The notes under the pieces were generated by a model that did no database searches, was not told the origin of the DNA, and saw only the letters and a program-made list of their open reading frames with translations. A DNA stretch of 64,000 nt from Bacteroides sp. Lineage in GTDB: Bacteria > Bacteroidota > Bacteroidia > Bacteroidales > Muribaculaceae. Shown in pieces: positions 45,714-56,465 of this stretch. The first letter of the stretch is position 1. Each line of letters opens with the position of its first letter. The stretch lies in contig JAAVCL010000002.1 in NCBI GenBank assembly GCA_014802335.1, forward strand, positions 1 to 64,000, given 5' to 3'. The translations under genes were made by a program, and so were the position numbers.

Positions 45714-46008
45714 AAGGTTAAGATTTATCAAGATTTTGAGAGAATTTTGATTATTGAAGAAGAAACACAGCCGGCTATGCGACTGATTAAAGAATCGAAA
45801 GACGCCAATAAATAATAGGCTTAAAGAAAACAATTTTAAACACTTCGTGGGTTCTCGTAAAAAGTTTAAATGACTTAATTATAAAAATTATTTCTTAATA
45901 CCTTTAGTTCAAATTATTTGATTATCTTTGCGAAATATTGGCGAAAAGATTTGCCGATGAAATTTTTGAGGATTTTTTGACTACAAACATAAGGCTTATA
46001 AGAGTCAA
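45714..46008. promoter_or_regulatory. Upstream region of the CHASE2-caspase locus
   Basis: No gene. A perfect -7 element TATCTTTG lies at 45923-45930, preceded by a palindrome TCAAATTATTTGA (45909-45921) near the -33 position that could be an operator. A reversed, degenerate motif copy AAAAAGTTTAAATGACTT lies at 45859-45876. The -7 box implies a leader of about 70 nt before ATG 46009. Confidence 0.5.
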
Positions 46009-47386
46009 ATGAAACGTCGTTCACGCCACAAGGCAAATACAAATTTCACACTGAAACCGGGCTCAAATGAGGCCGGGCAAACATTTGACGCTCTTTACCC
46101 CACAGCCATTTCCGCTACAGAATCGCCAAACCAAAACGCATCCCAAGATTCAAACCCAACTCGCCCGAATGTAATTTATATCACTGATAATCAACGTATT
46201 ACCCCCCCCCGATAACCACGATTTAAAGTCAAAACACAAGAGTTTTCTCAAGCTTTGTTGCAAGGCAGCCGGCGTTACAGCACTTGCATTTCTCTTATCT
46301 TTTTTATTAAGTTCACCTTTTGCGGCATCAATATCGGCTCTTTTCTCACCGTCAGAAAAGAGCGACTTCAATATGACCGATCTGTTCTTTCAAATTGCAG
46401 ACAATCGCCCTGTACGCACCTTTGAAAACCGTTTCGCCATACTTGACATTGGAAATCTCAACCGCCTTGAAATAGCAGAGTTGCTTGATATGCTGGCTTT
46501 GTGTGAACCTAAAGCCGTGGCTATCGATGTTAATTTTGAAACCGCTACAGAAAACGATTCACTATTACTAAATACCCTGTCGCACCTTCCTGCCCTTGTT
46601 CTCCCGGTTGGAGTGGAGCAGGAAGGCGACAGGTTCCGACTTGTCGACAAGCCCTTCTTCTATGGCAAAATACCCGGAATAGAATATGGAGTTGTGAATT
46701 TTCCCACATCGCATCGGGGCGGAACAGTGAGGGAGTTTGCCCATTCATTTCCGATGTCTGACGGCAAGACACTCCTCTCTTTCCCCGAAGCCGCCGCTAA
46801 AGCCGGCGGTCTTGACCCGGCAATATCCCCGGCATCGGCAGAGGATGTACCGACCGGTATCATCTCATATCATTCGAAAGAAATAACGGTCATCCCTCAC
46901 GACGACTTGGCAGACCGCCTTGAAGAACTCCATGACAAGATTGTGCTTGTAGGCACAACCACCGAAGCCGGCGATATCTACTCCACCCCACTGAGCCGGG
47001 GCGTGTCGGGACTTGAAATCCACGCCTACGCTTTAAGCACTATACTTGACGGCTCTAAATTGAAGAAAATGCCCGTATTCATCGGGAACATCATCGCGAT
47101 TGTCCTCTGCTTCCTGATGGTGCTCGGAGCAATCGGAATCAAGACGGGCATAAAAGGGCTGGTATTAAGGCTCGCACAGATCATATCGCTCTATTTTCTT
47201 GTATGGGGCGGCTACTCGATGCTCGTTGACCATGAGATCGTGGGCGACTTTTCGCAGGCAATTCTAATGGTGGCGTTCGGACTCTTCTCTGCCGATCTTT
47301 GGAACGGAACCGAAGCACTTATAAAATGGATTAAACAGAAATTCAAGAAAAGGCGTGCCGGGACATCACAGCCCTCCAACCAATAA
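46009..47386 (+). CDS. CHASE2-domain membrane sensor, reading frame split at a C9 tract
   Basis: ATG 46009 opens a frame that stops at 46215, directly after a run of nine C (46202-46210). The frame encoding the CHASE2 domain reads through that run as PPPDNHDLKSKHKS and continues without a stop to 47386, but has no ATG before 46373. With eight C the two parts join into a 458-residue protein: a polar N-terminus, a membrane helix (GVTALAFLLSFLLSSPFAAS), an extracytoplasmic CHASE2 domain (FAILDIGNLNRLEIAELLDM; HDKIVLVGTTTEAGDIYSTP) and three C-terminal helices ending in a basic tail. No output domain follows. Using ATG 46373 alone (337 residues) would lose the first helix. Slippage or phase variation is likely; an assembly error is possible. 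Confidence 0.8.
46202..46210 (+). repeat. C9 homopolymer at the CHASE2 frame junction
   Basis: Nine consecutive C residues lie within the coding region. Loss of one C joins the upstream frame (ATG 46009) with the downstream CHASE2 frame; homopolymers of this length are classic sites of slipped-strand change. Confidence 0.8.
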
Positions 47387-47407: not shown

Positions 47408-48256
47408 ATGATACAGAGAATATTATTTACACTTTGTTTAGCAATCGTGAGCTTTACAGCCGGTGCCCACTACACTCTTCACAGCGTGAGTGGCGATGTA
47501 AAAGTGGAAAGCGGAGGGAAGACTGTTTCCGCCGCGAAAGGTATGACCGTCAAGGCCATCGACTACATAATTATTCCCAAAGGGGGGAAGGTAGAGATTC
47601 TGAACGGACTCGACAAACGCATCTATACCTCCATAACCCCGGGAAGAATATCGGTGACACGTCTAATGATCGATGCACGCGGGGCAGCCTCCGACAATGC
47701 GAAGAACGTTGCCTCAAGAATGAACCTCGGGAGAAAATCGCCAAATGACAGTAAGAATGTATACGTGGAGAAAGGAATGGTGCGCCGTTCGCTTGCCGTG
47801 TACGATCCGGAAGGCGAAATGATGGAGATGGATGCCGAGACACTCGGCAAGTATGTGGCGGCAAGGTTGAACGATACAGCCGGGATAGCAACGGACACGT
47901 GTCCTGTGAATCTTACAAGCACCCACCTTCAAGACGGAGGACTCGCCTTCAAGCTGGAGAATACTCTCGGGTTCCCTGTCTATTTCAATGTGCTGAGAGT
48001 AAAGAAAGGAGAAAAGCCGACGGTTGAGATCTCGCAGTTGGGCCAGCCGGCCGGAAGCTATGTAGTGCTTCCGCGTCAGACCATCTCCCGGGAACATTTT
48101 CCCACCCTTGACCCCGCCGAGACTCATCTGGTTGTAATCACCAACTGTCAATATGATGTGGACAAGGTGATAGAAGAGATCACAAAAGCTCTTGAAAACA
48201 AGAATGACCTTGACGGTAGCGCCCGTGACCTGCCTGTATATATCGACTATCTTTAG
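47408..48256 (+). CDS. Secreted FecR-like protein
   Basis: A 282-residue exported protein with signal peptide MIQRILFTLCLAIVSFTAGAH. Residues about 20-75 (LHSVSGDVKVESGGKTVSAAKGMTV...IPKGGKVEIL) have the pattern of a FecR-type beta domain. The C-terminal 120 residues (LAFKLENTLGFPVYFNVLRV; SYVVLPRQTISREHFPTL) form a second beta-rich domain I do not recognise. It starts 21 bp after the CHASE2 gene. FecR-like and CHASE2 proteins are found together elsewhere as extracytoplasmic sensors. Its stop codon overlaps a GTTTAAAC motif copy (48256-48277). Confidence 0.72.
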   Translation: MIQRILFTLCLAIVSFTAGAHYTLHSVSGDVKVESGGKTVSAAKGMTVKAIDYIIIPKGGKVEILNGLDKRIYTSITPGRISVTRLMIDARGAASDNAKNVASRMNLGRKSPNDSKNVYVEKGMVRRSLAVYDPEGEMMEMDAETLGKYVAARLNDTAGIATDTCPVNLTSTHLQDGGLAFKLENTLGFPVYFNVLRVKKGEKPTVEISQLGQPAGSYVVLPRQTISREHFPTLDPAETHLVVITNCQYDVDKVIEEITKALENKNDLDGSARDLPVYIDYL

Positions 48257-48313: not shown

Positions 48314-50494
48314 ATGAATGGCAAACATCTACTCACTGCAATACTGATCGGAGGCACGATAATAGGTGTCCCAACGACCGGATATGCCAAGAAAAAAGAA
48401 AAGACACAACCGGAGCAACAGCAAGAACAAGAGCAGAAGCTGACTTACAAGTTCAAGCGTTATTTCCCAACGGTGTGTATGGATCCATATATAACCACCG
48501 TCTATTCAGCAGATAATTTTGCTGTAATGACAATGAGTGGTGATCCGGTGCACGAAGGTAACGACACTGTGAAGTCACTCAAAGTTAATCCGGCAGGCGT
48601 GAACTACGGTATTATCACAAAGAGCAAGAAAGGCAAGATTGAAGCCGACATATATCACTCGCTAAAAGGGGAAACCGTAAAGGCAAATAATTCGTATAGA
48701 AATAATGTCAAATTCAAGTCGCAACATCTGAACAAATTTGATTCAAAGCGCTACGGCACACCTACTGCCATAGGTTACACGCCTGACGCACGCCTGATAG
48801 TTGTGGCAGCGGAAAGTCCTGTCTTGGGCAAAAACATTTTTTTCCTGGAACCAAAGAATTTTCAGCCCGTATCGAAAATTCAGAGCGTTCCTTTTGAAGT
48901 GGGAAAGATGGTGTTCAGTCCCAACGGCTATTATCTGGCAGCTTCAAACGGCAATAAAATAATAATTTACAATCTTGAAGAGAAAAATATACGCAAGCAG
49001 CTTGATGCCGGTGAGAAAGTGAATGATATGGCTTTCAATCCCGACAACAGCGACTTTGCAGTTCTCACCGACGACGGCCTATTGTCTCTCTACAACACAC
49101 GCACGTTCGAAGTGCGCAAGATGATAGACGAATTGGGCGAGGCACGGGCCATGTCTTATAACCTTGACGGCAAATACATGGCCATAGTAACCGGAGACGA
49201 CATGGTGACATTGGTGAACCTGCTGCGTGAGTCTGACAGAGAAACATTCAATGCAGAAGGTGGTGCCGTGCGCGATGTTGATTTTGTGACCGACGCCGGC
49301 AATAACACCCTGCTTGTGATTCCGGCGGCCGACGCCATGATAGCCCAAAGGCTGCCCCATCTCAAACCTTTTTACAACAAGCTGATAGCGGACGAGGTGG
49401 AAAGAAAGATGGATGAATGGCTCAAGATGATGCCGGGCGAAACTATGGAAGACTACCGGAAACGTGTCACCGAAGAAAGTCGCGCACGCCAGCGCAGACT
49501 CTTTGAAGACGAGATCTCGACTAATTTTGCAGGCGACCTGCTTTCCGGAGCCACCATGAGTCTCGGCACATACGACCGTGCAAACGGTGTTCTTGCTCTC
49601 AATTTCGACTCCATGCCAACAATTTATCTTCCTGTTCCGGAATCTGATGTCACATCCTTCCATAATGCAGGCGACCTGACTCTGAGCGATGTGATGTATG
49701 GCATTCTTCCCGATGACAGCTTTGAAATCGTCTATGCCAAAGTGACCAACAAAACAGACGGCAAGAGCTATATCTATGACAATCTGATGCGCGCCGACCT
49801 GCAATATATGGCGGCCGATGATGCCATAACGCTCGAGATGCTCCAACAGCAGCAAATGGAGGAATTGAAACTTCAGGAACTGCGGCAGAAAGTGGTGGAT
49901 GAAGCAAAGAAAATGAATGTGATTTCAGACCACACACAGATCGCCGTGGACTCAAAGGTGGTGCCAGAGTATGACGCAAACGGCAACAAGATCTTGAATT
50001 ATGTAGTGAGCGTGACTTATACCGTCGATCCTGAATTCTCTGTCACTGAAGATTTCGGACCCGGCAAGTACCATATCAATGAATCCGGAGCTGCCTCTTC
50101 GATGCTTAACATACTCAAACAAGCTTTCGAGGGGGAATTCAACCAGTATCTTGCGCCGGGCAAAAAGATAAAAGTCCGTCTTCTGGGAACAGCCGATGCA
50201 ACTCCCATTGTGCATGGAATCGCATACGACGGTTCATACGGAGAATTTGAAGAGGAACCCGTATACATCGACGGGCGTCTGCAGGCTATCTCGGTGAACA
50301 GTAAAGATGGCATAAAGCAGAATGAACAGCTTGCATTCCTGCGCGCCCTTGGTGTGAAAGACTATCTTAACCGCAACGTGGCGAAATTCGAATCAATGGA
50401 TACCGACTATCGCTACGAAGTTAATGTGAGCAAAGACAAAGGAAGCGAACACCGTCGCATTACTCTTGAATTAACCTTCATTGATGCCTATTAA
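48314..50494 (+). CDS. Exported WD40-repeat protein with central shared domain and OmpA-like C-terminus
   Basis: A 726-residue protein. A signal peptide (LLTAILIGGTIIGVPTTGYAK) and a Gln/Glu-rich linker precede WD40-like blades (residues about 150-340; MVFSPNGYYLAASNGNKIIIYN, MAFNPDNSDFAVLTDDGLLSLYN). Residues about 358-515 (VERKMDEWLKMMPGETMEDYRKRV...GKSYIYDNLMRAD) match in pattern a central region of the caspase protein encoded next. The C-terminal 170 residues include KIKVRLLGTADATP and NEQLAFLRALGVKDYL, reminiscent of an OmpA-type peptidoglycan-binding fold with an insertion. This suggests a periplasmic scaffold attached to the cell wall. Gap to the caspase gene is 15 bp. Confidence 0.78.
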   Translation: MNGKHLLTAILIGGTIIGVPTTGYAKKKEKTQPEQQQEQEQKLTYKFKRYFPTVCMDPYITTVYSADNFAVMTMSGDPVHEGNDTVKSLKVNPAGVNYGIITKSKKGKIEADIYHSLKGETVKANNSYRNNVKFKSQHLNKFDSKRYGTPTAIGYTPDARLIVVAAESPVLGKNIFFLEPKNFQPVSKIQSVPFEVGKMVFSPNGYYLAASNGNKIIIYNLEEKNIRKQLDAGEKVNDMAFNPDNSDFAVLTDDGLLSLYNTRTFEVRKMIDELGEARAMSYNLDGKYMAIVTGDDMVTLVNLLRESDRETFNAEGGAVRDVDFVTDAGNNTLLVIPAADAMIAQRLPHLKPFYNKLIADEVERKMDEWLKMMPGETMEDYRKRVTEESRARQRRLFEDEISTNFAGDLLSGATMSLGTYDRANGVLALNFDSMPTIYLPVPESDVTSFHNAGDLTLSDVMYGILPDDSFEIVYAKVTNKTDGKSYIYDNLMRADLQYMAADDAITLEMLQQQQMEELKLQELRQKVVDEAKKMNVISDHTQIAVDSKVVPEYDANGNKILNYVVSVTYTVDPEFSVTEDFGPGKYHINESGAASSMLNILKQAFEGEFNQYLAPGKKIKVRLLGTADATPIVHGIAYDGSYGEFEEEPVYIDGRLQAISVNSKDGIKQNEQLAFLRALGVKDYLNRNVAKFESMDTDYRYEVNVSKDKGSEHRRITLELTFIDAY

Positions 50495-50509: not shown

Positions 50510-53119
50510 ATGAAAAGAAAGATAAGAAATTTATCCTTTATCGGGGTAATCCTTCTGTCGGCGATAGTGATGCCGAGGGTGGTTGCCTCCTCGGGAGCAC
50601 AGGAGCCGGCTATGGAAGCCACCGAGAATTCAGACGGCGCGCTTAACACTGATTCCATAGAAATCGCAGAGACCGCCCGATTGGTCGAGGAAGCCACCTC
50701 GGTATATAAGAACCTTAAATTTATTCAATACGACGGAGTTACGGAGGCGGAACTTTATCCGGCTGTAATGAATGTCTATGGGAAAGTGCGTGCAGCAATG
50801 CAGGCACCACGCATAAGCGCAGAGGATAAGAAAAGATTCAAGGGAATATTGCTGGATGTCAGCGATCTCTTGAAACGTGGATCCATGTATTACTCTAATC
50901 AGGGTGCGTCGCAGGATATGACGCTCTTCTCTACAGCCTATGTCGACACACGTCTCGACCCGGAGATGAGCGATATGAACTTCGGGACCGACACCGACTT
51001 GTATCCGGCACTGATTTATTGCGCGGCCTCGGGAGCATACAATAATGGTGATTTCGAAAAGGCGGCCGATTATCTGGAAGCTTACCTCAACACCGGTGCG
51101 AACGACCGGAGGGAGCAGGTGAGTCTCTTCTTCGGCCAGGCATGCCTCAACGCCAAATGTCCTGAACGAGCTGTGGATAAGCTCATTGCAGCAGTTGACA
51201 AGTATCCGGCAAATTTCAATATTCTGATGATTGCGCTTCAGAATTGCCTTGAAGCCGGCCAGACCGACAGGATGCAGCCCCTTCTCGACAAGGCGTTGAT
51301 GATGAGGCCCAACGACGAGCAGCTTCTCACCGCGCAGGCACGTCTGTTCGAGAATAACGGTAATTATTCCTCTGCAATCGACCTCTATCAGAAACTCTAC
51401 GAAATGAAGCCCAACAGCCTGCAGATTAACCAGCATATTGCACTGTGCTACTATAATCTTGGAGCCGACTACTATAATAGAGCCTTGATGGAGAAAGAAG
51501 ATAAGGTCTCCAAGCGCTATTCACGCCAGTCGCAGGCTTATTTCATGAGTGCTTTAGGCAATCTTGCGACAGTGGTCGAGAATGACCCGACGAACACCAA
51601 ATATCTTCGTGCACTTGCCGTAACCTACGGGTGTCTCGGCAACAAGACCAAGCTTGACGAAATAAATGTAAGGCTTCAGGCATTGGGAATGAACCCCATG
51701 CCAATGAACGGCATGCCGGAGTCAATCGCATTTAACGATCAGACGGCTAAAAGCAGTAATTCCGGAAGCTATGTACCCGATTTTCAAGAATTTGCCCGCG
51801 GATATGTGGAAAATGAACTGGCAGCATGGACCAAACGCGGTGAATTCGAGAAAATCGAGGACTTCGAAAAGCGTGTGAACCAAAACAATGTTTACCGGAA
51901 ATATCAGGAACTCTGCAAAAAGGCAGAAGCTGATTATTTGCAGAAATATGCAGGCCGTTTGAGAATTTCCGATTTGTCGCTGCAACCGTATGATGTTGAC
52001 AATGAAAGTTACATGATAACTTCCGCGATGGGTCCGATTGTGGTCAAAGTGCCTCTTAAGAACAAAGAAGCTGAAACTTTCAAGTCATCATGGAACACCA
52101 TCCAGCTTCGCAACCCGAAGTATTTCATAAAAGACAACCACGTAGCAATAGCCTCGGTAGAGCTTGTCACCTCGGCCGGAAAGAGCTATCGGTATGATTC
52201 CGACAGGGCTGCCGATTATGATTTCACTGACGTAACAATTGACATGCAGTCATTCCTTGCACAAGGGAATTCAAGGCGCGATCGAGCTGAAAACACATCC
52301 ACGGGATCGGGTACTCCTAAAGTGATACGAGCCAAGAGTGATGTAGATGAGAATATCCCGGTGACAAGTCGCAAAGCTGAAAAAACCGTGGCACTGATCA
52401 TCGCGAACGAGAATTACAAACAAGTGACAGATGTTGAATCGGCCCTGAACGACGGCGAAACCTTTGCAAAATACTGCCGGATGACCTTGGGTGTTCCTGA
52501 GAGTCAGATCATGAACTATGAAAACGTGACGTATGCAGAGATGCTGGGCGCCGTCCAGAAGCTGCGTCAATTTGTCGGTGCGCTTGGCGACGGTGTGGAC
52601 ATTATAGTTTATTATGCCGGTCACGGCTTCCCTGACGAAGGGAACAAGGATGCCTATCTGTTGCCGGTGGACGGCGACGGTTTCACCACCGTGACTTCCT
52701 ATCCGCTCAAGAAACTGTATTCAGACCTTTCATCAACCGGAGCAGACAATGTGATGGTATTCCTTGATGCTTGCTTCAGCGGAGCAACCCGCGACGGGGG
52801 TATGCTTGCGGAAGCTCGAGGCGTTGCCTTAAAACCCCGTGTGGCTGAGCCGGAGGGCAATATGTTTGTACTCAGTGCCGCGAGCGATCAGGAGACAGCG
52901 CTCCCCTATAAAGAGAAGAATCACGGTCTTTTCACCTATTATATCCTTAAGAAGATTCAGGATTCGAAAGGCAACGTGACTCTAAAGGATCTGAGCAAGT
53001 ATGTGGAGGAAAATGTAAAGAAAAATTCTCTTACTGTAAACCGCAAACTGCAGACCCCACGCACAAGTGTTTCGGGCAAGATGCGCGATATATGGGAAAA
53101 CAAGCGACTTCGACAGTAA
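50510..53119 (+). CDS. Exported TPR protein with C-terminal caspase-like (C14) protease domain
   Basis: An 869-residue protein. The N-terminal hydrophobic segment (LSFIGVILLSAIVMPRVVAS) acts as signal or anchor. TPR-like helices run to about residue 390 (FEKAADYLEAYLNTGA; YSSAIDLYQKLYEMKPNSLQIN). Residues 430-590 hold the domain shared with the WD40 protein (YVENELAAWTKRGEFEKIED...GKSYRYDSDRAAD). Residues 620-860 are a caspase/metacaspase domain with VALIIANENYK, the catalytic His705 in IIVYYAGHGF and Cys755 in VFLDACFSG. Both catalytic residues are intact, so it is probably an active Arg/Lys- or Asp-directed endopeptidase facing the periplasm or outside. Central gene of the locus. Confidence 0.88.
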   Translation: MKRKIRNLSFIGVILLSAIVMPRVVASSGAQEPAMEATENSDGALNTDSIEIAETARLVEEATSVYKNLKFIQYDGVTEAELYPAVMNVYGKVRAAMQAPRISAEDKKRFKGILLDVSDLLKRGSMYYSNQGASQDMTLFSTAYVDTRLDPEMSDMNFGTDTDLYPALIYCAASGAYNNGDFEKAADYLEAYLNTGANDRREQVSLFFGQACLNAKCPERAVDKLIAAVDKYPANFNILMIALQNCLEAGQTDRMQPLLDKALMMRPNDEQLLTAQARLFENNGNYSSAIDLYQKLYEMKPNSLQINQHIALCYYNLGADYYNRALMEKEDKVSKRYSRQSQAYFMSALGNLATVVENDPTNTKYLRALAVTYGCLGNKTKLDEINVRLQALGMNPMPMNGMPESIAFNDQTAKSSNSGSYVPDFQEFARGYVENELAAWTKRGEFEKIEDFEKRVNQNNVYRKYQELCKKAEADYLQKYAGRLRISDLSLQPYDVDNESYMITSAMGPIVVKVPLKNKEAETFKSSWNTIQLRNPKYFIKDNHVAIASVELVTSAGKSYRYDSDRAADYDFTDVTIDMQSFLAQGNSRRDRAENTSTGSGTPKVIRAKSDVDENIPVTSRKAEKTVALIIANENYKQVTDVESALNDGETFAKYCRMTLGVPESQIMNYENVTYAEMLGAVQKLRQFVGALGDGVDIIVYYAGHGFPDEGNKDAYLLPVDGDGFTTVTSYPLKKLYSDLSSTGADNVMVFLDACFSGATRDGGMLAEARGVALKPRVAEPEGNMFVLSAASDQETALPYKEKNHGLFTYYILKKIQDSKGNVTLKDLSKYVEENVKKNSLTVNRKLQTPRTSVSGKMRDIWENKRLRQ

Positions 53120-53139
53120 CAATCCAAGAAAAGAGAGAC

Positions 53140-54009
53140 ATGAAACGACTGCTGCTATTTATGGCTTTTCTGCCCGCCATGCTCGGTGTGGCCTCCGACA
53201 TTGTCACAGTGTCGGGTGAGTCTACATATTATGATGACGGCACAAAATCGAAAGTAGAATGCATGAGGCTCGCCTCCGAACAGGCAAGGATAGATGCCCT
53301 TGCAAAAAAATTCGGAACTATTGTGGCGCAGGATATTCTTCAGGCAGACCGCATAAAAGGCAACCGCGAACAAAATGATTTCCTGGCCCTATCCTCAACC
53401 GAGGTGAGAGGGGAATGGGTGGCCGATGACGGCGAACCTGAATATGAATTCTCTCACGACTCGAAGTCCAACCTTATAGTTCATTGCAAAGTAAAAGGCA
53501 AGGCTAAGGAAATTTCAAATGAGTCACCGGCTTTTGAGGCGAGTGTACTCAGGAATGGCACCGACACGCGCAATGCCGACAATCTGTTCCGCGACGGTGA
53601 TGATATGTATTTGCACTTCAGGGGTTCTGCCGACGGATTTCTCTCCGTGTTTCTCGAGGATGAGACCGGGAATGTATATCTACTGCTCCCCTACCCTCGT
53701 GATTCAAAGACTCGTGTTGCGGTGAAGCGCGACCATGATTATGTGTTCTTCAGTCCGGATCACGAAATTAAGGCAGGAGGTAACGGTTCCGTTGTTGAGG
53801 AATTGATACTGACAGCTCCCGATAATGCGGAATACAACCGCGTGTATGTTGTGTTTTCTCCCGAGAGTTTTTCACGCCCCGTAATGGACACCGGAAGCGG
53901 ACTGCCGATGATGAAAAGCGGGGAATTCAACAAATGGCTTTTAAAGGCCCGACGCAATGATAGCAAAATGGGTGTGAAAGCCATGAATATCATGATATCG
54001 CCTCGTTGA
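53140..54009 (+). CDS. Exported DUF4384-domain protein
   Basis: A 289-residue protein. ATG 53140 (MKRLLLFMAFLPAMLGVAS) gives a clear signal peptide and is preceded by AAGAGAGAC, whereas the ORF-track start lies inside the caspase gene. The N-terminal part (CMRLASEQARIDALAKKFGTI) resembles the helical motif of LPP20-like domains. The C-terminal part (DGDDMYLHFRGSADGFLSVF; YLLLPYP; VVFSPESF) is a DUF4384 domain. DUF4384 domains are often fused to or neighbours of caspase-like proteases, which fits the context. Follows the caspase gene by 20 bp. Confidence 0.8.
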   Translation: MKRLLLFMAFLPAMLGVASDIVTVSGESTYYDDGTKSKVECMRLASEQARIDALAKKFGTIVAQDILQADRIKGNREQNDFLALSSTEVRGEWVADDGEPEYEFSHDSKSNLIVHCKVKGKAKEISNESPAFEASVLRNGTDTRNADNLFRDGDDMYLHFRGSADGFLSVFLEDETGNVYLLLPYPRDSKTRVAVKRDHDYVFFSPDHEIKAGGNGSVVEELILTAPDNAEYNRVYVVFSPESFSRPVMDTGSGLPMMKSGEFNKWLLKARRNDSKMGVKAMNIMISPR

Positions 54010-54157: not shown

Positions 54158-54784
54158 ATGAAAAGAATCATTTTATGCCTTATTGCAGCCATGCTCCTGC
54201 TTCCCGGCTATTCGGAAGCAGCCAACAAACAGCTTGAAAAAGCCCGCAAGAAAGAGTTGAACCAGAAGCTCAAGGAGTATAAGAAAGGCAAATGGGAAAT
54301 CATGGGCAGCCACACCCTTGACTTTGCCCTTGCAAAACATTTCGACAGGCTCAACACTCTTGGCGATGACGCGCATGAAGTTGAAGGAATATCAACCAAG
54401 ACAAAATCGAAGAATACAGGAAAGCAGGCGGCCATAAACAACGCAGTGGTGACTTACGCTCAGGAAGCGGGAAGCACTCTTCAGGGACGTGTAGTGAGCG
54501 ACATGAATGCCAACGGAGCTGATCCCTCGGGAGAGTTCGATAATTTCTATGCCGCTTACGAGCGTTTGGTTGAAAAGGAAATCAGAGGCGAGATGGAGCC
54601 ATCATACTCAATTATCCGCACCAACCCCGATGGAACCTATGAAATCCGCACATATTTCATCATTACCGAAAGCGCTGCCAGCAAAGCGAGAATGCGTGCC
54701 CTTGAGGAAGCCCTCAAGAACTCTGAAGCCGCTCAGAAATATGGCGCGAAGATCACCGAGTTTGTAAAACAAGGATTTGAATAA
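54158..54784 (+). CDS. Small exported protein, LPP20-like, function unknown
   Basis: A 208-residue protein with signal peptide ending YSEAANK. A Lys-rich amphipathic helix (QLEKARKKELNQKLKEYKKG) is followed by GKQAAINNAVVTYAQEAGST and a C-terminal region YEIRTYFIITESAASKARMRALEEAL. The order resembles LPP20-type proteins of Bacteroidetes, also hinted at in the DUF4384 protein before it. No catalytic motif is visible. Probably in the locus by orientation and shared architecture. Confidence 0.7.
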   Translation: MKRIILCLIAAMLLLPGYSEAANKQLEKARKKELNQKLKEYKKGKWEIMGSHTLDFALAKHFDRLNTLGDDAHEVEGISTKTKSKNTGKQAAINNAVVTYAQEAGSTLQGRVVSDMNANGADPSGEFDNFYAAYERLVEKEIRGEMEPSYSIIRTNPDGTYEIRTYFIITESAASKARMRALEEALKNSEAAQKYGAKITEFVKQGFE

Positions 54785-54959: not shown

Positions 54960-56465
54960 ATGAAAAACAGAGGTAAGGTTTTGGCTATGCTTATGGCTAT
55001 TCTAACAATTACTGCTCCCTCAGCCCAAAGCCGGGACAGGAAGTCGTTTGAGGAATTTCGGAATGGGATTCTGAACAGCTATTCTGATTTCAGGAAGACT
55101 ATCCTTGACAACTATGCGGATTTTCTTAACGGAGAATGGCACGAATATGAAAGCCTCAACGGAGAACGTCGCGACCGCACGCCCAAACCTTCGCAGGTGC
55201 CTACATTCAAACCCGAGACACCCGCAAAGCCCAATCCTGCACCCCCTCTGCCGGCAAAGTCAAAACCGGCAACTGCCGTTCCGGTCAAGCCCGAGCCTGC
55301 GAAATCAGAACCTATTGTTCATTCTCAACCCAAACACCGCACTCCCCAATCCGCCCAAGAAGATTTTGATTTCTTCGGGTTGCCGGTCTCACTCCCCGGA
55401 ATTGAATATAACATTGCCTACCGCCTTTCCTCCACAACCGACTATGCATCACAATGGAAGGACCTTGACCGTTCGGGAGTTGCAAAGGCCCTTCTGCCGG
55501 CCATAAAAGAGAAAGCGAATGAAATGGGGCTGAATGACTATCTTGTATATGAATTTATAAAGGCCTATGTAACTTCAAAGTTTCCACAGGCAGATGTGAG
55601 TTCACGTTTTTCGGCCATGCACTACCTGCTCGCCAACTTAGGATACGATGCACGCATAGCAGTGAGCGGCACCGGAACTCCCCTGCTGTTGCTACCCTTC
55701 AAGCAGACAATTTATGCACGGAACTATATGATGATGGCCGATGGGAAATACTATGTGTTCGCACCCGACGACTATGACTATTCACTTCTTGGCCGGGAAC
55801 GGTTAAGAACCTGTACTCTTCCAAAGGATGCCGACAAAGGAGAAAAGTTCGACCTTGTACTCGGCCAACTGAATATACCTGTGAAACCGAAGAGCTTTGA
55901 ACTCGAATACGGGCCGTTGAAACTAACCGGGGAAGTAAACGAAAACCTTATGCCCATTCTTTACCACTATCCACAGATGCCGATAGCTGATTATGCCATT
56001 TCGCAGCCTGATCCTGAACTACGGCGCAAACTCGTGGAGCAGATGAAAGCCCAGATCGGTAATATGGAAGGAGACGAAGCTGTGGAACAGTTGCTGAGTT
56101 TCATGCACCATGTGTTTGAATATGCCACCGACGAGGAATTCCACGGCTTTGAAAAGCCATATTTTATTGAAGAGACACTCTACTATCCTAAAAATGACTG
56201 TGAAGATCGGGCGATATTCTATACTTACTTCCTTTGGAACGCACTTGGCAAGGAAGCACAGTTGATAACATTCCCGGGGCATGAGGCTGCCACTGTCCGA
56301 CTTGACAATCCGGTGGAAGGCACGTCCTATGATTTTTCAGGAAAGACTTTTTATATATCAGACCCGACATATATCGGTTCGCACACTGGCATGTTAATGC
56401 CGATATACAAAAACAACGAGCCGAAAGTGGACTATACCTTCACCCATAAATCTTCACGACGCTGA
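54960..56465 (+). CDS. Exported transglutaminase-fold protein with complete catalytic triad
   Basis: A 501-residue protein with a signal peptide (VLAMLMAILTITAPSAQS). Residues 25-60 form an amphipathic segment (FRNGILNSYSDFRKTILDNY), and residues 75-125 a Pro/Lys linker with PAKSKPAT-type repeats typical of a wall-spanning stalk. The C-terminal half is a transglutaminase-like papain fold: Cys414 in PKNDCEDRAIFYTYFLW, His441 in TFPGHEAATV and Asp468 in FYISDPTYIG. The fold may act as a protease or cross-link/cleave peptides in the envelope. It is not separated from the caspase locus by a strong terminator; membership is inference. Confidence 0.82.
   Translation: MKNRGKVLAMLMAILTITAPSAQSRDRKSFEEFRNGILNSYSDFRKTILDNYADFLNGEWHEYESLNGERRDRTPKPSQVPTFKPETPAKPNPAPPLPAKSKPATAVPVKPEPAKSEPIVHSQPKHRTPQSAQEDFDFFGLPVSLPGIEYNIAYRLSSTTDYASQWKDLDRSGVAKALLPAIKEKANEMGLNDYLVYEFIKAYVTSKFPQADVSSRFSAMHYLLANLGYDARIAVSGTGTPLLLLPFKQTIYARNYMMMADGKYYVFAPDDYDYSLLGRERLRTCTLPKDADKGEKFDLVLGQLNIPVKPKSFELEYGPLKLTGEVNENLMPILYHYPQMPIADYAISQPDPELRRKLVEQMKAQIGNMEGDEAVEQLLSFMHHVFEYATDEEFHGFEKPYFIEETLYYPKNDCEDRAIFYTYFLWNALGKEAQLITFPGHEAATVRLDNPVEGTSYDFSGKTFYISDPTYIGSHTGMLMPIYKNNEPKVDYTFTHKSSRR

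Follow-up and report, generated by a model that had tools for sequence, protein, structure and literature searches.

The gene for a CHASE2 sensor at the head of a caspase locus is split by a homopolymer, and the question raised by this locus is whether the split marks a phase-variable switch, as the sequence-only reading had proposed, or whether it reflects recoding, an internal start, a dead gene or simply an error in the assembly. The analysis covers the whole 64-kb stretch of DNA in which the locus lies, referred to as the window, together with homologous loci in related genomes.

A sensor gene interrupted at a run of nine C

Nine consecutive C occupy positions 46202-46210 of the forward strand, and these constitute the sole C/G run of at least seven nucleotides across the 64-kb window. 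The elements around this run are the following:

45923..45931, forward strand: promoter-like motif TATCTTTGC, of the Bacteroidetes TAnnTTTG type, from motif reading
46009..46215, forward strand: N-terminal frame, MKRRSRHK...ITPPR, which at C9 is out of register with CHASE2
46175..47386, forward strand: open CHASE2 frame (Pfam CHASE2 PF05226, E=5e-21), with no usual start codon before 46373
46202..46210, forward strand: C9 tract, the proposed slippage site, for which orthologues show C7, C8, C9, C10 and G8
46253..46345, forward strand: coding region of the first hydrophobic (membrane) segment, from hydropathy, upstream of ATG 46373

The frame that opens at ATG 46009 has 68 codons and, as previously noted, breaks off just past the run, with a TAA stop codon at 46213-46215. 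The CHASE2 frame, which extends from stop to stop between 46175 and 47386, is open through the tract; the earlier statement that it lacks an ATG until 46373 holds, and applies equally to GTG and TTG. Computation of the frames also confirmed that both parts fuse into one protein of 458 residues when the run has eight C, while eleven C would give 459 residues. Among all lengths from C6 to C12, full-length products are predicted only for C8 and C11, and the remaining lengths lead to products of 67-72 residues. The run is, in other words, a simple repeat within a coding sequence, in which a change of one unit shifts the reading frame.

The genome from which the window comes is assembled into 30 contigs totaling 2.09 Mb, with an estimated completeness of ~84%. 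It contains nine C/G runs of eight or more nucleotides, of which only the C9 tract lies within a protein-coding gene, the other eight being located in intergenic or GC-rich non-coding sequence. Judging from these sequences, the bare presence of one C9 per genome would be unsurprising, and it is the conservation of the tract at the same place that is telling. The count of nine in this assembly may be off by one.

In the fused protein, the CHASE2 domain lies between membrane segments, with hydrophobic stretches on both sides, as in a CHASE2 sensor. The first of these segments spans residues 82-112, whereas the Met encoded by ATG 46373 is residue 122; thus, a product started there would be without the first helix, in agreement with the earlier placement of this codon past the helix. 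From its sequence, such an internal start would cost the protein the segment that anchors and exports its sensor domain.

The CHASE2 gene is the first of seven, all on the same strand; the other six are:

47408..48256, forward strand: gene 2, exported protein of unknown family; no Pfam match, order conserved
48314..50494, forward strand: gene 3, WD40-like propeller protein, from domain search; order conserved
50510..53119, forward strand: gene 4, TPR and caspase (Peptidase_C14, E=5e-21) with a signal-peptide-like N-terminus; order conserved
53092..54009, forward strand: gene 5, DUF4384-like, just under the Pfam cut-off, true start possibly further in; order conserved
54158..54784, forward strand: gene 6, exported protein; order conserved
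54960..56465, forward strand: gene 7, exported protein; order conserved

The first five genes are separated by gaps of 16-58 bp, plus one overlap, and the last two gaps measure 149 and 176 bp. Where contigs reach far enough, the ten relatives checked have these seven genes in the same order. All six downstream products have signal-peptide-like N-termini, as read by eye from the translations, and the CHASE2 sensor seems, on this sequence evidence, to be the sole inner-membrane protein amid the envelope proteins of the operon. When the seven operon proteins were compared with the PADLOC models, only a generic caspase match was obtained (E=1.3e-8), and the other six proteins matched nothing.

Conservation of the tract and selection on the gene

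The CHASE2 protein was used as query against the genus and the family, and the 5' ends of 50 homologues were read. Nine CHASE2 genes, namely, the one in the window and those of eight other species, each represented by one genome, have a C/G run of 7-10 nucleotides in the N-terminal coding stretch, and in all nine a TAnnTTTG promoter-like motif is found 5' of the start ATG. The run leaves the gene out of frame in seven cases (C9 in the window, L002, L003 and L024; C10 in L004; C8 in L010; C7 in L008) and in frame in two, both from other genera (C8 in L059; G8 in L051). All the genomes compared are draft assemblies, probably derived from metagenomes, and the length counted for any one tract may be off by one or reflect the majority in a population. 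A repeat of variable length is therefore kept across relatives, and both ON and OFF states occur, between species. The predominance of out-of-frame genes, seven out of nine, is a point against free switching, but the two in-frame genes agree with the one third expected under it (p=0.73).

The location of these runs is far from random. Across 187 kb of loci there are twelve C/G runs of at least seven nucleotides, and ten of them fall within 300 bases upstream of the homologue of ATG 46373, a clustering with p=5e-10 when ancestry is left uncorrected. These ten include a C9 in L060 that precedes the promoter motif and lies outside the gene, and which was excluded from the nine tract-bearing genes. 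A tree of 49 homologues implies that the tract was gained or lost six times or more; synonymous sites are near saturation between most tract species and the C run nevertheless persists. An order-wide search retrieved CHASE2 relatives in other Bacteroidales families, with no tract in those inspected, and a search of viral contigs found no relative.

The same N-terminal extension, of 193-196 bases from ATG to tract, is present in L002, L003, L004 and L024. Among L003, L004 and L024, dN/dS of this extension is 0.47-0.64, and the gaps within it are all in-frame, which together indicate a loosely constrained coding sequence. For the CHASE2 core, dN/dS among these same genes, the closest out-of-frame relatives, is ~0.06-0.07. 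Thus, the sensor is not decaying, and the gene has the selective signature of a functional gene rather than that of a pseudogene.

Two relatives depart from the simple arrangement. In L005, which is nested in the tract clade, a T interrupts the run and an ATG in the CHASE2 frame lies just upstream, at a position matching that of an in-frame ATG in L003; from its sequence, this gene looks like a locked switch. In L003 itself (G041:C43), an ATG lies in the CHASE2 frame 12 bases ahead of the C9 run. With this arrangement, the outcome in L003 could be a choice between isoforms, long at C8 and short at C9, instead of ON and OFF states.

Probable slippage and the competing explanations

Based on these results, we consider that the C9 tract is probably a slipped-strand phase-variable contingency locus in the CHASE2 sensor gene, with a likelihood of roughly 80%. 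The switch proposed in the sequence-only reading is supported by tracts of differing length at the same site, some in frame and some not, and by the purifying selection acting on these genes. Replication slippage would add or remove C near codons 65-67 of the gene for this inner-membrane sensor of 458 residues. With C8 or C11, the full sensor would be made, comprising a cytoplasmic N-terminus, the first helix, a periplasmic CHASE2 domain and C-terminal helices; with C9 or C10, translation would end after ~68-72 codons and no membrane-anchored sensor would result, so that the assembled window genome would represent the OFF state. We infer both that slippage is the origin of the length changes and that these are reversible within a strain. 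The OFF state would be expected to silence sensing for the caspase operon, and perhaps to lower expression of the operon by polarity. Since a conserved operon of seven genes begins with CHASE2, it is plausible that sensing is switched for the whole caspase system.

Unlikely, but the strongest of the rivals, is recoding, by which mRNA with C9 would yield full-length sensor through +1 frameshifting at the CCC-C proline codons, or through slippage of RNA polymerase. If so, which we doubt to the same degree, the sensor would be produced at a low, constant or regulated yield, and there would be no heritable switch. CCC-C is indeed prone to +1 shifts (PMC7577736, PMC4519876), a +1 shift is what five of the nine tract genes need, and the strong purification of out-of-frame genes requires some expression over evolutionary time. 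A programmed shift should nevertheless hold one direction, and this is not what the nine genes show: L004 and L008 need the opposite shift (-1), L059 and L051 need none, and the run in L051 consists of G instead of C. The same genomes, moreover, bear tracts in methylase and secreted-protein genes that resemble ordinary contingency loci. Leaky recoding on top of switching is possible.

Assembly error, internal start and pseudogene were all rejected as main explanations. The sequence-only reading had itself allowed that a basecalling or assembly error might turn a real C8, and with it a simply intact gene, into C9; homopolymers are error-prone, and the window comes from a draft genome of unknown sequencing method. 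Such an error would not strike the same homologous site again and again in genomes that were assembled separately: it cannot explain a long C/G run in eight other species, and in five close relatives (C9, C9, C9, C9 and C10) an error of the same kind would be needed each time. Even with eight C, the run would stay a slippage site, and we regard error as a very improbable account of the locus. More improbable still is translation of CHASE2 from ATG 46373, with the upstream frame as a separate small gene or leader. Several relatives have a Met at the corresponding position, but this is missing in L008, L009 and L010, and the start would remove a first membrane helix that is conserved in homologues. 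Tract-free orthologues, both within the family and in others of the Bacteroidales, start shortly before that helix; a start at the position of ATG 46373, which had been named as an observation that would count against a switch, was looked for and found in none of the readable orthologues. Recent loss of the gene by a single frameshift, which would fit with the out-of-frame state of the window gene and of six relatives, is just as hard to credit, given the dN/dS of the core, the lack of any other lesion and the intact operon. Variable tracts at the same site, purified CHASE2 cores and an intact operon thus make both an assembly error and a dead gene unlikely.

Known systems and further tracts in Muribaculaceae

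Descriptions of phase variation in Bacteroidales usually concern DNA inversion, and most known cases of homopolymer switching come from other phyla, where intragenic poly-G/C contingency loci occur, among others, in Helicobacter and Neisseria. In Campylobacter jejuni, such loci have typical lengths of G9-G10 (PMC8355987). The tract described here is like them in being a C/G run of about this length within a coding sequence, with in-frame and out-of-frame states, and in that several loci are found per genome, with methylases and surface proteins as typical targets; unlike them, it belongs to Bacteroidales and to the sensor gene of a caspase operon, and its switching is predicted from sequences. 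With the invertase-driven phase variation of Bacteroides (PMC11868660) it would have in common that envelope functions are switched at random in a member of the Bacteroidales, but the Bacteroides mechanism is DNA inversion by a recombinase, and no inversion is proposed for the C9 tract. A closer precedent in mechanism is an O-acetyltransferase-related gene of Bacteroides fragilis YCH46, whose frame is shifted by one additional C within a C run, with slippage as the proposed cause; that run, however, has four C only, three strains were compared, and there is no conserved tract (PMC3090145). Within the literature covered, which is incomplete, nothing specific on homopolymer phase variation in Muribaculaceae or Bacteroidales was found beyond this report. 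Regarding the protein, the caspase-CHASE2 fusion of Trichodesmium erythraeum likewise links a caspase to a CHASE2 receptor that has membrane helices (PMC3501461), although as one fused protein, whereas here the two are encoded by separate operon genes, the caspase is seemingly exported, and the sensor gene has a C tract.

The conservation of a variable-length tract in a gene that encodes the sensor of a caspase operon points to a randomised response in gut commensals, either to envelope stress or resembling cell death. Caution is also called for with metagenome-assembled genomes, whose annotation will show genes of this kind as truncated or missing.

Four sister genomes likewise have several of their other C/G runs of at least nine nucleotides within genes. 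In L085 (G009:C3, minus strand), a G9 near locus position 1502 splits a gene for an N6/N4 DNA methylase: the N-terminal frame begins at an ATG located 224 bases upstream and does not match the frame of the methylase domain; from this arrangement, the methyltransferase is likely phase-variable. A sample of TA-C8+ sites in further genomes provided genes for a C5 cytosine methylase and an HsdS-like specificity protein (L138, G033:C36; L125, G060:C4), each split by a G8 near position 1501. Tracts also occur in the signal peptides of secreted proteins: a G9 in an M6-type peptidase (L087, G100:C16), C10 in a large secreted protein in two genomes (L091, G100:C35; L099, G041:C51) and a C/G run of 9-10 in another (L126, G023:C2) are out of frame, and a G10 (L090, G015:C27) is in frame. 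Since these are typical phase-variation targets, they support the switch reading of the window gene, and the sequences suggest that its tract is one locus of a family-wide poly-C/G phasome in uncultured Muribaculaceae. We tentatively propose, at somewhat less than even odds, that a genome-wide phasome, often of TA-C8 to TA-C11, switches methylases, secreted proteins and, via CHASE2, the caspase operon, randomly splitting the population. If this were true, cells of one population would differ at random in their ability to trigger the caspase pathway.

The sequence context of these runs is skewed. In 61 genomes of the genus, TA-C8+ occurs 198 times and the reversed pattern 65 times, with totals summed by hand. 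In a separate comparison of sequences, TA precedes ~80% of the C9+ runs, compared with 4-6% of the C3-C5 runs, in counts where some loci enter twice. A recurring short sequence, MLFGTNIT.RETRNA..., found in several copies (L084 and L098 in G041; L094 in G100), has C9 or C10 just 5' of a hairpin-like stretch. Lastly, L092 (G041:C26) has an in-frame G9 in the glycine-rich MGGGSADASF of what appears, from its sequence, to be an ispE-like kinase gene.
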